Positions 5,174 through 9,502 of a DNA stretch of 64,000 bases are shown one piece after another (the first letter of the stretch is position 1; the number at the start of each line of letters is the position of its first letter). Source of the DNA: Isosphaeraceae bacterium EP7. Lineage in GTDB: Bacteria > Planctomycetota > Planctomycetia > Isosphaerales > Isosphaeraceae. Both the position numbers and the translations under genes were made by a program. Location of the stretch: contig CP151667.1 in assembly GCA_038400315.1 (NCBI GenBank), forward strand, positions 4,723,174 to 4,787,173. Reading direction: 5' to 3'. The notes beneath the pieces are model-generated. The model ran no database searches, was not told the DNA's origin, and saw only the letters and a list, made by a program, of their open reading frames with translations.

Positions 5174-5197
5174 CCTTGCCCCTCGATCGGGGCAAGG
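5174..5197 (+). terminator. Hairpin after the cyclophilin gene
   Basis: A perfect 9-bp stem (CCTTGCCCC at 5174-5182, GGGGCAAGG at 5189-5197) with a 6-base loop lies 51 bases after the stop codon at 5122. There is no strong T-tract. Confidence 0.55.
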
Positions 5198-5307: not shown

Positions 5308-6417
5308 ATGCGCATCGAGCGGATCGAGCTCAGGATCGTCAGCCTCCCTCTGGTTCGACCTTTTCGCACCAGTTCCAGCGTCAAGAACCACATCCAGCAC
5401 ATCCTGATCCGGGTCGAGGATGGCGGGGGCCGCTCGGGCTGGGGCGAGTGCGCCAGCCCTGCCGATCCCTATTATTGCCCCGAGACGACCGGGACCTGCT
5501 GGCACATCCTCAACGACTTCCTCGCCCCCGCGGTCCTCGGGCGCGACTGCTCGACCGTCGAGGATCTGGTCGATGCTTATCGATTGGTGAAGGGGAACAA
5601 CTTCGCCAAGTCGGGCCTGGAGATGGCCTGCTGGGACCTTCTCTCACGATCCGAGGGCAAGCCGCTCCATGAAATGCTGGGCGGCACTCGAACTCTGATC
5701 GAGTCGGGAGTGAGCCTGGGCATCGAGCCGGACGTTGATGCCTTGCTCGCTCTGGTCGGGAAATACGTCGACGAGGGCTATCGCCGGGTGAAGCTCAAGA
5801 TCGGGCCCGGACACGACGTCGAGGTCCTTCGCCGAGTCCGTGCTCAATTTCCCGATCTGCCGCTCCAGGTCGACGCCAATTCGGCCTACACGCTCGACGA
5901 TCTCGACCTGCTCAGGCGTCTCGACGAGTTTGGCCTCCTGCTCATCGAGCAGCCGCTGGATCATGACGACATCATCGACCATGCCAGGCTGCAACGGGCG
6001 ATCGAGACACCTGTTTGCCTGGACGAGAGCATCCACTCGGCCGAGGACGCCCGTAAGGCGATCGAGATCGGTGCCTGCCGGATCATCAACATCAAGGTGA
6101 GCCGGGTCGGCGGCCTGGCCGAGGCGAAGCGGGTGCACGATGTCTGCCAGGCGCATGACGTGCCGGTCTGGTGCGGCGGGATGCACGAGTTCGGCGTCGG
6201 CCGAGGCGCCAACATCGCCATCGCGTCGTTGCCCGGTTTCACTCTGCCGGGCGACGTCTCGGGCTCGGACAAGTATTATCGAGAGGATGTGGTCGTGCCC
6301 GCCATTCGCGCCGAGGATGGCTGCATCGCCGTGCCCGATCGGCCTGGACTGGGCTTCGAGCCGATCCTCGAACGGATCGAGGCGCTAACTTCACGCTCCG
6401 TCCTCTTGACGGTCTGA
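5308..6417 (+). CDS. N-succinylamino acid racemase / o-succinylbenzoate synthase (menC-type enolase superfamily)
   Basis: A 369-residue enolase-superfamily enzyme. It shows the NSAR/OSBS fingerprint: KLK at residues 162-164 (catalytic lysine), D189 in VDANSAY, E214 in IEQPL and D239 in LDES (Mg2+ ligands), K263 in NIKVSR (second catalytic lysine), then WCGGMHEFGVGR and LPGDVSGSDKYY. Family members either make o-succinylbenzoate for menaquinone or racemise N-succinylamino acids. No other men gene is nearby, whereas an M20 hydrolase and a GNAT acyltransferase follow directly, so the racemase role is favoured by context. I start at ATG 5308, which matches the usual MRIxxIEL beginning; a GTG at 5278 is an in-frame alternative. 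Confidence 0.9.
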   Translation: MRIERIELRIVSLPLVRPFRTSSSVKNHIQHILIRVEDGGGRSGWGECASPADPYYCPETTGTCWHILNDFLAPAVLGRDCSTVEDLVDAYRLVKGNNFAKSGLEMACWDLLSRSEGKPLHEMLGGTRTLIESGVSLGIEPDVDALLALVGKYVDEGYRRVKLKIGPGHDVEVLRRVRAQFPDLPLQVDANSAYTLDDLDLLRRLDEFGLLLIEQPLDHDDIIDHARLQRAIETPVCLDESIHSAEDARKAIEIGACRIINIKVSRVGGLAEAKRVHDVCQAHDVPVWCGGMHEFGVGRGANIAIASLPGFTLPGDVSGSDKYYREDVVVPAIRAEDGCIAVPDRPGLGFEPILERIEALTSRSVLLTV

Positions 6418-6475
6418 TGCATAACGATCCGGTGATTTTGCAGAGCGGGAAACGGAACGCGAAGGGGCGACGTTG

Positions 6476-7621
6476 ATGAATTTGGGGCAGATTCTGCTGG
6501 GTGCCCTCCGCGAACAGCGCGGGGCGATGCTCGTCGAGTTGGCGGCCCTGGTCGGTCATGAATCACCCAGCCGTGACAAGCACGCGCTCGATGGCCTTGC
6601 TGACTCGATCGCCGGTCGCTTCGGGACTCTCGGCGGACAGATCATCCGCCACGTCAATCCGGCCGGCGGCGACCATATCGAGGCCCGATTCGAGGGAGCC
6701 GACCCACGGCTGGCCCCAAGCCTGGTGCTCGCCCATTTTGACACCGTCTGGCCGACGGGCACGCTTGCCCGGATGCCCTTCCGGGTCGAAGATGGCAAGG
6801 CCTACGGGCCAGGCACCTACGACATGAAGGCGAGTCTGGTCCTCCTCGAATTCGCCCTTAAAACCCTTCGAGACCTGGGCCGAGCACCGGCCCGTCCCGT
6901 CGTGGCCCTGCTCACCTCCGACGAGGAGATCGGCAGCGCATCCTCACGCCCTCTGATCGAGGAGCGTGCCCGGTCGGCGGCGCATGTGCTCGTGCTGGAG
7001 CCCCCCCTGGCCGACGGTCGTCTGAAGACCGGGCGCAAGGGGGTTGGAAAGTTCGTGGTCACCATCAGGGGGCTCGCCGCACATGCCGGCGTCGAGCCCG
7101 AGAAGGGGATCAACGCAATCCAGGAACTCGCCCATCAGGTGCTACTCCTGCACGGCCTGGCCGACCTGGAACGAGGGACGACGGTCAACGTCGGCGTGGT
7201 CGCGGGTGGGACCGTCTCCAACGTGGTGCCGGCCGAGGCGACCGCGAGGGTGGACGTCCGCGTCAAGACGCTCGACGAAGCCGACCGCATCGTTCGCGCC
7301 TTCGGGTCGCTCGAGCCCTTGGTCCAAGGGATCCGCCTGAGCGTCGACGGCGAGTTCGACCGACCGCCCATGGAGCGTACCCAGCGCAGCCACGAGCTGT
7401 TCGAGCGGGTGCGCGAGATCGGCCGGACGGTGGGCCTGGAACTGGGCGAGGGCTCGACCGGCGGTGCCAGCGATGCCAACTTCACCGCGGCAATCGGTGT
7501 TCCCACGCTCGATGGGCTGGGCGCCCAGGGGGCCGGTGCACATGCTGATTATGAGCACGTCCTGATTGATGCCCTGCCCGAGCGGGCCGCGCTTCTGGCC
7601 GCGGTGTTGGCCTCGATCTAA
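6476..7621 (+). CDS. M20 family metallopeptidase (carboxypeptidase G2-like; candidate N-succinyl-L-amino acid hydrolase)
   Basis: A 381-residue di-zinc hydrolase of the M20/CPG2 type. Metal ligands and catalytic residues are visible: H87 in LAHFDTVWPTG, D116 in GTYDMKAS, the E150-E151 pair in TSDEEIGS and the following LEPPL. The dimerisation (lid) domain is interrupted by GLAAHAG, as in the family. No signal peptide was seen, so it is probably cytoplasmic. It begins 58 bases after the racemase gene; ATG 6476 is preferred over the TTG at 6473. In Geobacillus a member of this superfamily removes succinate from N-succinyl-L-amino acids next to NSAR, and the same role is inferred here. A general carboxypeptidase or other amidase activity remains possible. 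Confidence 0.88.
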   Translation: MNLGQILLGALREQRGAMLVELAALVGHESPSRDKHALDGLADSIAGRFGTLGGQIIRHVNPAGGDHIEARFEGADPRLAPSLVLAHFDTVWPTGTLARMPFRVEDGKAYGPGTYDMKASLVLLEFALKTLRDLGRAPARPVVALLTSDEEIGSASSRPLIEERARSAAHVLVLEPPLADGRLKTGRKGVGKFVVTIRGLAAHAGVEPEKGINAIQELAHQVLLLHGLADLERGTTVNVGVVAGGTVSNVVPAEATARVDVRVKTLDEADRIVRAFGSLEPLVQGIRLSVDGEFDRPPMERTQRSHELFERVREIGRTVGLELGEGSTGGASDANFTAAIGVPTLDGLGAQGAGAHADYEHVLIDALPERAALLAAVLASI

Positions 7622-7660
7622 TTTCGGCCCGATCAGGATCCATCCGGAACGACGCCACGC

Positions 7661-8527
7661 ATGAGCGACGAAATCGTCATCCGACGCGCCGAGACTCCCG
7701 CCGATTACCGGGCCTGCCAGGAGGCTCAGCGCCTGGCCTGGGGCATCACCGAGGACGGCTACCTCGTCCCCGTCGCCACGCTCGTCGGTGCGCAGCACCA
7801 CGGCGGCCTTGTCCTGGGTGCGTTCCTGCCCGATGGCCGGGCCGCCGCACTCTCGTTCGCCTTCCTCGGACGCATCGATGGCCGGTTCTGCCTATATTCG
7901 CAGCTGACCGGCGTGATCCCCGAGTACCAGGGTCGTGGGCTCGGGCTCGACCTGAAACTCGCCCAGCGGGCGTATGCGCAGGGGCAGGGGATCGGACTCC
8001 TCGCCTGGTCGTTCGACCCGATGCAGGCGGGAAACGCCAACTTCAACCTCGGCAAGCTGGGCGCCACCGTGGGCAGGCATGTCGCCGATATGTACGGCCC
8101 GAGGACCGATGCCCTCAACGCGGGGATCCCCACCGATCGACTCATTGCGGAGTGGTCCACCCAGGGGATCTTTAAGCCCGGGCCCGTGGATCGGCCGCTT
8201 CCCGATGCCCCCCGGCGCATCAAGGTTTTCGTGGGCGAAGACGGCCTGCTCCGCCCCGATGGCCTGGAGCCGACGACCTCCGCGAACATGCTCATCGAGA
8301 TTCCCGAGGAGATCGGGGTTCTGCGGCGCGACCATCCCGAGCTGGCCTCGGAGTGGCAGCTCGCGGTCCGCGAGGCGTTCAGCCGGGCTTTTGCCGACTC
8401 CTACCGAGCGGTCGGCTTCGGCCGGACGACCGAGGACGGTCGTCGACGAAACTTCTATCTCCTGACCCGGCCTGAGCCATCGAAGGTCGACCGTGCGCCG
8501 GGATCCCACAACTCCGGCGAGGACTGA
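7661..8527 (+). CDS. GNAT family acyltransferase (COG3375-like; candidate D-amino acid N-succinyltransferase)
   Basis: A 288-residue acyl-CoA-dependent transferase. The acyl-CoA binding loop is seen in VIPEYQGRGLGLDLK (about residues 85-99), and LLAWSFDPMQAGNANFNLGKLGA is the conserved stretch of the COG3375 subgroup of GNAT proteins. The C-terminal ~120 residues are longer than in a minimal GNAT. It begins 39 bases after the M20 gene and ends just before a hairpin, so the three genes 5308-8527 probably share a transcript. A GNAT succinyltransferase is the third member of the known N-succinyl D-to-L amino acid pathway; substrate specificity here is inferred only from the neighbours. Confidence 0.85.
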   Translation: MSDEIVIRRAETPADYRACQEAQRLAWGITEDGYLVPVATLVGAQHHGGLVLGAFLPDGRAAALSFAFLGRIDGRFCLYSQLTGVIPEYQGRGLGLDLKLAQRAYAQGQGIGLLAWSFDPMQAGNANFNLGKLGATVGRHVADMYGPRTDALNAGIPTDRLIAEWSTQGIFKPGPVDRPLPDAPRRIKVFVGEDGLLRPDGLEPTTSANMLIEIPEEIGVLRRDHPELASEWQLAVREAFSRAFADSYRAVGFGRTTEDGRRRNFYLLTRPEPSKVDRAPGSHNSGED

Positions 8528-8529
8528 TC

Positions 8530-8554
8530 GGGGCAAGATCGGCGGGCTTGCCCC
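8530..8554 (+). terminator. Hairpin closing the 5308-8527 gene group
   Basis: An 8-bp perfect stem (GGGGCAAG at 8530-8537, CTTGCCCC at 8547-8554) with a 9-base loop starts 3 bases after the GNAT stop codon. Its arms resemble those of the hairpin at 5174-5197. No T-tract follows. Confidence 0.5.
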
Positions 8555-8644: not shown

Positions 8645-9502
8645 GTGAGCACCCCTTCCACTCAGAAGCTTCCCCCGCTGGCCCTCGGCGTTTGCAGCTG
8701 GAGCTTGCAGGTCAAGAACATCCCCGAGCTGAAGCGGCTGCTGGACGGCCTCGGCGTCTCGGTCGCCCAGCTCGCCTGCGGCGACCCGCATCACGCGAGC
8801 TGGGACGAAGGTGATGACCTCGCCCAGGCCGCCCTCGCCTCGGGCCTGACCTTCACAGGTGCCATGCTCGGCTTCCCCGGAGAGGATTACACCACCCCGC
8901 AGACGATCAAGGAGACGGGCGGATTCGGCAACCCGGCCGATCGCCCCGAGCGGCTCAACCGGCTTGCCTGGGCGCTGGACCGGACCCGGGCCCTGGGCCT
9001 GACCGACCTGATGCTGCACGCCGGCTTCATCCCCGAGCCCGGCTCGCCCGACCGCGTCGGGATGCTGGAAACCTTGGCCAAGGCCGGGCAGATGGCGGCC
9101 GAGAAGGGGGTGACCCTGGCCTTCGAGACCGGGCAGGAAACAGCCCAGCTCTTGCGCCAGACCCTCGACGATCTCAGGTCGCCCAATATCAAGGTGAACT
9201 TCGATCCCGCGAACATGCTGCTCTACGATATGGGTGATCCGCACAAGGCCGTCGAGCTGCTCGGCCCCGACATCCGTTCGGTGCACGTCAAGGATGCGAT
9301 CCGCCCGTCAGTCCCCGGCCAGTGGGGCCAGGAGGTCCCTCTGGGACAGGGAGAGGTCGACATCCGCAAGTTCGTCAAGACGCTGAAGAAGGTCGGCTAC
9401 ACCGGCGCACTCGTCGTCGAGCGAGAAGTCGGCGACCAGGCAGGACGTCTCAAGGACGTCGCCGATGGGCTAGCCTTCTTGCGTGAGTGCCTGGCCGACT
9501 GA
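8645..9502 (+). CDS. Sugar phosphate isomerase/epimerase (xylose isomerase-like TIM barrel)
   Basis: A 285-residue protein of the AP-endonuclease-2/xylose-isomerase-like TIM-barrel family. Conserved elements are ALGVCSWSL near the N-terminus, LAFETGQE (metal-binding Glu), VNFDPANMLLYDMGDP (metal-binding Asp/Asn), RSVHVKDA (His-Val-Lys) and the C-terminal LVVEREVG (Glu). These are the usual divalent-metal ligands of sugar isomerases and epimerases. It starts at GTG 8645, with AGGTGG six bases upstream. No signal peptide is present, so the protein is cytoplasmic. The substrate cannot be told from sequence, and the gene stands alone between a hairpin and a convergent gene. Confidence 0.85.
   Translation: MSTPSTQKLPPLALGVCSWSLQVKNIPELKRLLDGLGVSVAQLACGDPHHASWDEGDDLAQAALASGLTFTGAMLGFPGEDYTTPQTIKETGGFGNPADRPERLNRLAWALDRTRALGLTDLMLHAGFIPEPGSPDRVGMLETLAKAGQMAAEKGVTLAFETGQETAQLLRQTLDDLRSPNIKVNFDPANMLLYDMGDPHKAVELLGPDIRSVHVKDAIRPSVPGQWGQEVPLGQGEVDIRKFVKTLKKVGYTGALVVEREVGDQAGRLKDVADGLAFLRECLAD

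Follow-up and report, generated by a model that had tools for sequence, protein, structure and literature searches.

The closest described system to the genes treated here is the N-succinylamino acid racemase (NSAR) pathway of Geobacillus kaustophilus, which was reportedly described by Sakai et al. in 2006 (Biochemistry 45:4455) and is said to convert D-amino acids irreversibly to L-amino acids. The same three enzyme classes (NSAR, M20 hydrolase, and GNAT acyltransferase) are clustered in that bacterium and in the DNA analysed here, a window of 64,000 nt from Isosphaeraceae bacterium EP7 (the whole stretch that was analysed, with its first letter as position 1). The two systems are compared here at the level of enzyme classes, and they differ in that the host of the window is a planctomycete without the classical menaquinone pathway and in that the M20 type may not be the same. 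In the window, the genes for the racemase, the M20 hydrolase, and the GNAT lie adjacent in that order on the plus strand (Table 1), with spacers of 58 nt (to the ATG at 6476) and 39 nt; the positions, strand, and spacings given in the original prediction were thus confirmed by the coordinates of the open reading frames (ORFs). All three ORFs were assigned from an ATG (369 aa for the racemase and 288 aa for the GNAT), and the M20 gene could alternatively start at an in-frame TTG (6473).

We consider it probable (roughly 0.7) that the three genes encode a route of D-to-L amino acid conversion via N-acyl, probably N-succinyl, intermediates. In such a route, the GNAT, presumably selective for the D form, would acylate a D-amino acid, with succinyl-CoA as the most likely donor of the (succinyl) group; the racemase would interconvert the N-acyl-D- and N-acyl-L-amino acids via a metal-stabilised enolate by using K164 and K263; and the M20 metallo-hydrolase, presumably selective for the L form, would strip the acyl group from that form. 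Hydrolysis of the L form only would make the conversion irreversible. A route of this kind is already known from other bacteria, and the genomic context gives good support to its predicted presence here, where the hydrolase is of another subtype.

The racemase scored 351 bits with the menC model TIGR01928 (cut-off, 200.65) and contained the Pfam domains MR_MLE_N and MR_MLE_C. Its best solved relatives were N-acylamino acid racemases, at the top of which stood the Amycolatopsis enzyme (1sja, E 5.2e-107), an NSAR/o-succinylbenzoate synthase (OSBS) that is alignable over residues 1-365 with 49% identity, about half of the positions being different. K162, K164, D189, E214, D239, and K263 were invariant in the 39 rows of the family alignment, and K164, K263, D189, E214, and D239 were aligned with the same residues in 1sja, so that the catalytic residues are conserved; we take K164 and K263 to be the catalytic lysines and D189, E214, and D239 to be the metal-binding acids. 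R266, a mark of NSAR specificity, is present, but an arginine was found at this position in every sequence compared, including 12/12 labelled as men-operon sequences, so that R266 does not discriminate in this sample. Position 298 was glycine in 38/38 cassette sequences of the window's own family, 45/45 GNAT-linked sequences from genome_contigs, and 10/10 plasmid or Amycolatopsis rows, and serine in 10 of the 12 rows labelled men-operon, a split that may merely follow clades. The two-lysine pair of NSAR/OSBS-type racemisation is described in a passage of PMC8142540, a table of which gives GkNSAR/OSBS, AmyNSAR, and DrNSAR as racemising N-succinylamino acids.

The M20 protein contained the Pfam domains Peptidase_M20 and M20_dimer, and its closest solved structure was carboxypeptidase G2 (CPG2; 1cg2, E 1.5e-47), with which it has the common M20 fold (aligned residues 7-378) and a conserved metal-ligand pattern, although the two have diverged (165.9 bits). 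H88, D117, E151, E152, E176, and H357, which presumably are the metal ligands and the catalytic glutamate, were aligned with CPG2 and were invariant in 39 rows. With the closest NCBIfam subfamily, PRK06133 (glutamate carboxypeptidase), the score was 269.6 bits, below the cut-off of 349, and the protein is therefore named G2-like and is not placed in that subfamily.

For the GNAT, no Pfam or NCBIfam match was obtained at 1e-3, and no solved relative was found by sequence search; with E values of up to 1 allowed, 7/9 members of its family alignment matched the GNAT model Acetyltransf_1, the best of them at 2.7e-9. The AlphaFold2 model (predicted local distance difference test (pLDDT), 92.0) has the GNAT fold over about residues 3-171, and its comparison with solved structures gave a best Z of 15.3 and a best Foldseek E of 4.8e-8. 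Residues 172-272 form a further domain, which was predicted alone at pLDDT 94.3 and whose conservation is weak (identities of 15-26% to 36 relatives of the Bacillota type). Foldseek gave no match to this domain at E <= 0.001, its best VIA Z being 4.5, which is not proof of a new fold.

Table 1. Features of the cassette and its borders in the window (each gene is given from its ATG to its end)
Feature	Position	Strand	Basis
NSAR/OSBS-family racemase, candidate N-acylamino acid racemase	5308..6417	+	TIGR01928, MR_MLE domains, 1sja, invariant residues
M20 metallo-hydrolase, carboxypeptidase G2-like, candidate N-acyl-L-amino acid hydrolase	6476..7621	+	Peptidase_M20, M20_dimer, 1cg2, Streptomyces relative
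GNAT-family acyltransferase, candidate D-amino acid N-succinyltransferase	7661..8527	+	Predicted fold; racemase-adjacent relatives in other phyla
GNAT C-terminal domain, residues 172-272	8174..8476	+	Separate structure prediction
Hairpin 3' of GNAT, 8-bp arms GGGGCAAG/CTTGCCCC, without T-run	8530..8554	.	
Upstream palindrome, same 8-nt arms reversed in order CTTGCCCC/GGGGCAAG	5175..5196	.	

Conservation was evaluated in a class sample of 297 genomes, consisting of 45 of the window's own family (f1) and 252 others. The GNAT was found in 40/45 f1 genomes and in 0/252 of the others, and the racemase (at least 57% identity) in 39/45 f1 genomes, with one a partial match. For the comparison of the cassette, 40 loci were retrieved from 39 other f1 genomes, and the order racemase-M20-GNAT on the same strand was kept in 34 of these 40 loci; with the window's genome included, the cassette is present in 35/45 f1 genomes. 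The reading frames were full-length for the racemase in 38/38 matches, for the M20 in 37/38 (the other runs off its contig), and for the GNAT in 35/36 (L085 is slightly short), and because the frames have the expected length, the stop codons flagged within some of the GNAT matches are most likely located past the ends of the genes. Since order and strand are kept in 34/40 loci with ORFs that, except where a contig ends, are full-length, the arrangement in f1 is more than chance. With extrapolated starts, the racemase-M20 gap was at most 126 nt and the M20-GNAT gap at most 70 nt, each in 32/34 loci. Among the remaining ten genomes, three (G107, G171, and G155) have loci truncated at the end of a contig, with the GNAT on another contig in G107 and G171; the cassette of G007 is split, with the racemase apart and the M20-GNAT pair still linked, and in G163 a fragment of the GNAT was found at the edge of a contig; in G072, G076, G135, and G143, neither racemase nor GNAT was found at the search level used.

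In other families of the class, 14 loci (L125-L138) carry a 34-45% identical NSAR/OSBS-like gene, and no GNAT or M20 relative was found in the retrieved stretches of these loci. An Hsp70-like gene adjoins the GNAT-less homologue in four of them (one of the four was scanned with Pfam), and no conserved partner that would explain these homologues was found.

Outside the class, nine plasmid regions were chosen by hand from the match lists, of which eight were annotated. The GNAT adjoins a menC-annotated gene in 7/8 (Priestia, Lysinibacillus, two Deinococcus, Streptomyces, Arthrobacter, and Sulfitobacter), and in D. radiodurans it lies near a menC-annotated gene with transporter genes in between. 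Next to the GNAT-racemase pair, an M20 gene is found in the Lysinibacillus and Streptomyces regions, and ABC transporter genes are found in Deinococcus and Sulfitobacter. A scan of genome_contigs was also performed with the racemase alignment, and the best 80 loci were nearly all from Bacillota, with none from Geobacillus; a GNAT lay within the retrieved stretch in 45 of these 80 loci, and 34 had both GNAT and M20. Bacillota, Actinomycetota, Deinococcus, and Sulfitobacter thus all have members of this GNAT family next to members of this racemase family. One plasmid cassette, L076 (CP065518.1), is recorded as Stenotrophomonas rhizophila KC1, and its M20 and GNAT are 100% and 97% identical, respectively, to those of a Lysinibacillus plasmid; given this near-identity, the entry may carry a wrong label or reflect contamination.

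Two of the plasmid cassettes are among the closest known counterparts. In the Lysinibacillus fusiformis plasmid pMGMM7 (L071), a Bacillota cassette with all genes on one strand, the racemase is 48% and the GNAT (same family) 30% identical to those of the window, and an M20 gene is present too; it differs in the gene order (M20-GNAT-racemase) and in that its M20 is over the cut-off for the TIGR01891 amidohydrolases, being alignable with the window M20 at only 28% identity over 100 aa (E 0.004). In the Streptomyces sp. NBC_00257 plasmid (L074), the order is again M20-GNAT-racemase, in contrast to racemase-M20-GNAT here, and the racemase is 50% identical, the GNAT is of the same family, and the M20 has an identity of 45% to the window M20 across 366 aa (E 5e-86), with the same best NCBIfam model. 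In the best 80 genome_contigs loci, all M20 matches of more than 60 bits were closest to the Lysinibacillus type. As the M20 proteins of the window and Streptomyces are G2-like and those of Bacillota are of the TIGR01891 type, the hydrolase slot of these cassettes is, by model matches and alignment, filled by two M20 subfamilies.

The score of 351 bits with TIGR01928, over the cut-off of a menC model, would fit an assignment of the racemase-like gene as menC (OSBS) of classical menaquinone synthesis, but the gene content of the genome and of the class makes this assignment extremely improbable. A menaquinone role had been doubted in the original prediction from the lack of other men genes nearby, and a check elsewhere in the genome had been proposed. 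In the host's own genome (99.89% complete), no menB match was found, and the best menD score was 86.6 bits against a cut-off of 244.2, so that the set of the classical pathway is lacking; genes of the futalosine route were over cut-off (MqnC, 491.6 bits; TIGR03700, which we take to be an MqnE-type model, 533.2 bits). In the 297 class genomes, menB was over cut-off in none (weaker matches in 251) and MqnC in 278. TIGR01928 fires likewise on GNAT-linked proteins and on the four other planctomycete homologues tested (three from L125-L138 and one f1 paralogue, 4/4 over cut-off). A menaquinone role of the racemase was thus rejected, as contradicted by the men and mqn gene content. The best menB match of the class was in G134 (C145:32310-33083; 312.8 bits against the cut-off of 342.7), and the next was 145.3 bits. 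For five planctomycete proteomes, Table 1 of PMC3914697 gives MenF in 0, MenB in 0, MenC in 4, and MqnA, MqnC, and MqnD in 5. The standard 'menC equivalog' profile would accordingly misname the racemase gene in organisms of the futalosine route, and the question is raised of what role is played by the NSAR/OSBS-like proteins of the other class families, which have no GNAT or M20 partner and likewise occur without menB.

The same logic may instead operate with another acyl donor (for example, acetyl-CoA) or over a narrow range of substrates, such as acidic amino acids via the G2-like hydrolase. The acyl specificity of the GNAT is not given by its sequence, the nearest solved relative of the M20 is carboxypeptidase G2 and its closest NCBIfam subfamily, although below cut-off, is a glutamate carboxypeptidase, and the hydrolase subfamily is unlike that of the Bacillota cassettes. 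We regard this alternative as unlikely, because the racemase is close to enzymes that, in a table of PMC8142540, were assayed with N-succinylamino acids, and because the GNAT family is common to cassettes bearing the other hydrolase type. Considerably less probable is a role in the salvage or detoxification of N-acyl amino acids or peptide derivatives that is not directed to D-amino acids, with the racemase merely widening the range of usable isomers. This would be compatible with the breadth of the three superfamilies to which the folds belong, with the additional C-terminal domain of the GNAT, to which no role is assigned, and with the fact that neither a transporter nor a regulator for D-amino acids was seen as a conserved neighbour of the cassette. 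However, if one enzyme attaches the acyl group and another removes it, with a racemase in between, the outcome would be a futile cycle unless the stereoselectivities of the two differ, and the transporter genes beside the GNAT-racemase pair of Sulfitobacter include one for an amino acid ABC ATP-binding protein.

The phylogeny of the racemase had been proposed together with the original prediction. In a tree of 80 rows, the cassette racemases of f1 group together (Shimodaira-Hasegawa-like approximate likelihood ratio test (SH-aLRT), 99), and a larger branch (SH-aLRT, 98) joins the f1 cassette, GNAT-linked, and men-operon sequences; with a long outgroup, the f1 paralogues (100) and the planctomycete homologues without a GNAT (99) lie outside the branch that holds the cassette. 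This placement with GNAT-linked relatives is suggestive but not decisive. Several results weigh against the route. Approximately unbiased (AU) tests on 52 rows rejected neither a topology that joins the cassette racemases to the planctomycete homologues lacking a GNAT (p 0.31) nor one that joins them to the f1 paralogues (p 0.319). Moreover, 35 of the best 80 genome_contigs racemase loci had no GNAT in the retrieved stretch, and some of these are men operons (L214, with menD, menH, menB, menE, and menC; menB also in L217, L171, and L187); in f1, the racemase of G147 (cut by a contig end) had no M20 or GNAT in the 6 kb downstream; and the M20 subfamily of the window differs from the amidohydrolase type of the Bacillota cassettes. 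The sequence does not reveal which acyl group and which substrates are used, and all three activities are predicted. The originally predicted route is thus favoured by a gene set conserved in the family and by a GNAT-racemase pair found across phyla, with the hydrolase subfamily as a point of difference from the Bacillota cassettes.

Together with the C-terminal domain of the GNAT, the G2-like M20 leads us to suggest, tentatively and at less than even odds, that the D-to-L route of f1 is a variant in which the hydrolase has been exchanged and the range of substrates is different, with acidic D-amino acids as an example; if this were true, one racemase family would feed two pathway variants in different phyla. 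With the f1 cassette, the N-acyl D-to-L route would be extended across an entire bacterial family, in the form of a conserved cluster of diverged enzymes, namely an M20 of another subtype and a GNAT whose extra domain is unexplained. In a search covering titles and the openings of abstracts, with subscription papers outside its coverage, no publication describing the cassette in planctomycetes was found. The recycling of D-amino acids from the cell wall, which had been offered as the purpose of the cassette, is speculation, and nothing supporting it was seen in the neighbourhood of the cassette.

A second racemase-like gene of the same genome (L002 / L119, G000:C1:4686032-4687117), 41% identical to the cassette racemase and located about 41 kb upstream on the opposite strand, has no GNAT or M20 neighbours. 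The position of K164 is R or E in 5/6 f1 racemase paralogues, and this own copy retains K.

The next gene downstream of the cassette (8645-9502, plus strand) encodes a xylose isomerase-like TIM-barrel protein (Pfam AP_endonuc_2). As a fourth member of the cassette, this sugar-isomerase-like gene was rejected, since a scan of the 40 cassette loci of f1 and of 20 other loci gave no relative at 1e-8.

The hairpin that had been noted after the last gene exists, but a role as an intrinsic terminator is not supported: it is without a T-run, a terminator scan found none, and the 121-nt stretch holding it folded no better than shuffles (z -0.45). The pair formed with the upstream palindrome was rejected as a conserved element, as 0/33 other f1 loci listed had arms common to upstream and downstream hairpins. 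The two palindromes bracket the cassette with the same 8-nt arms in opposite order, and each pattern occurs in one copy in the window and in one copy in the 7.2 Mb genome.

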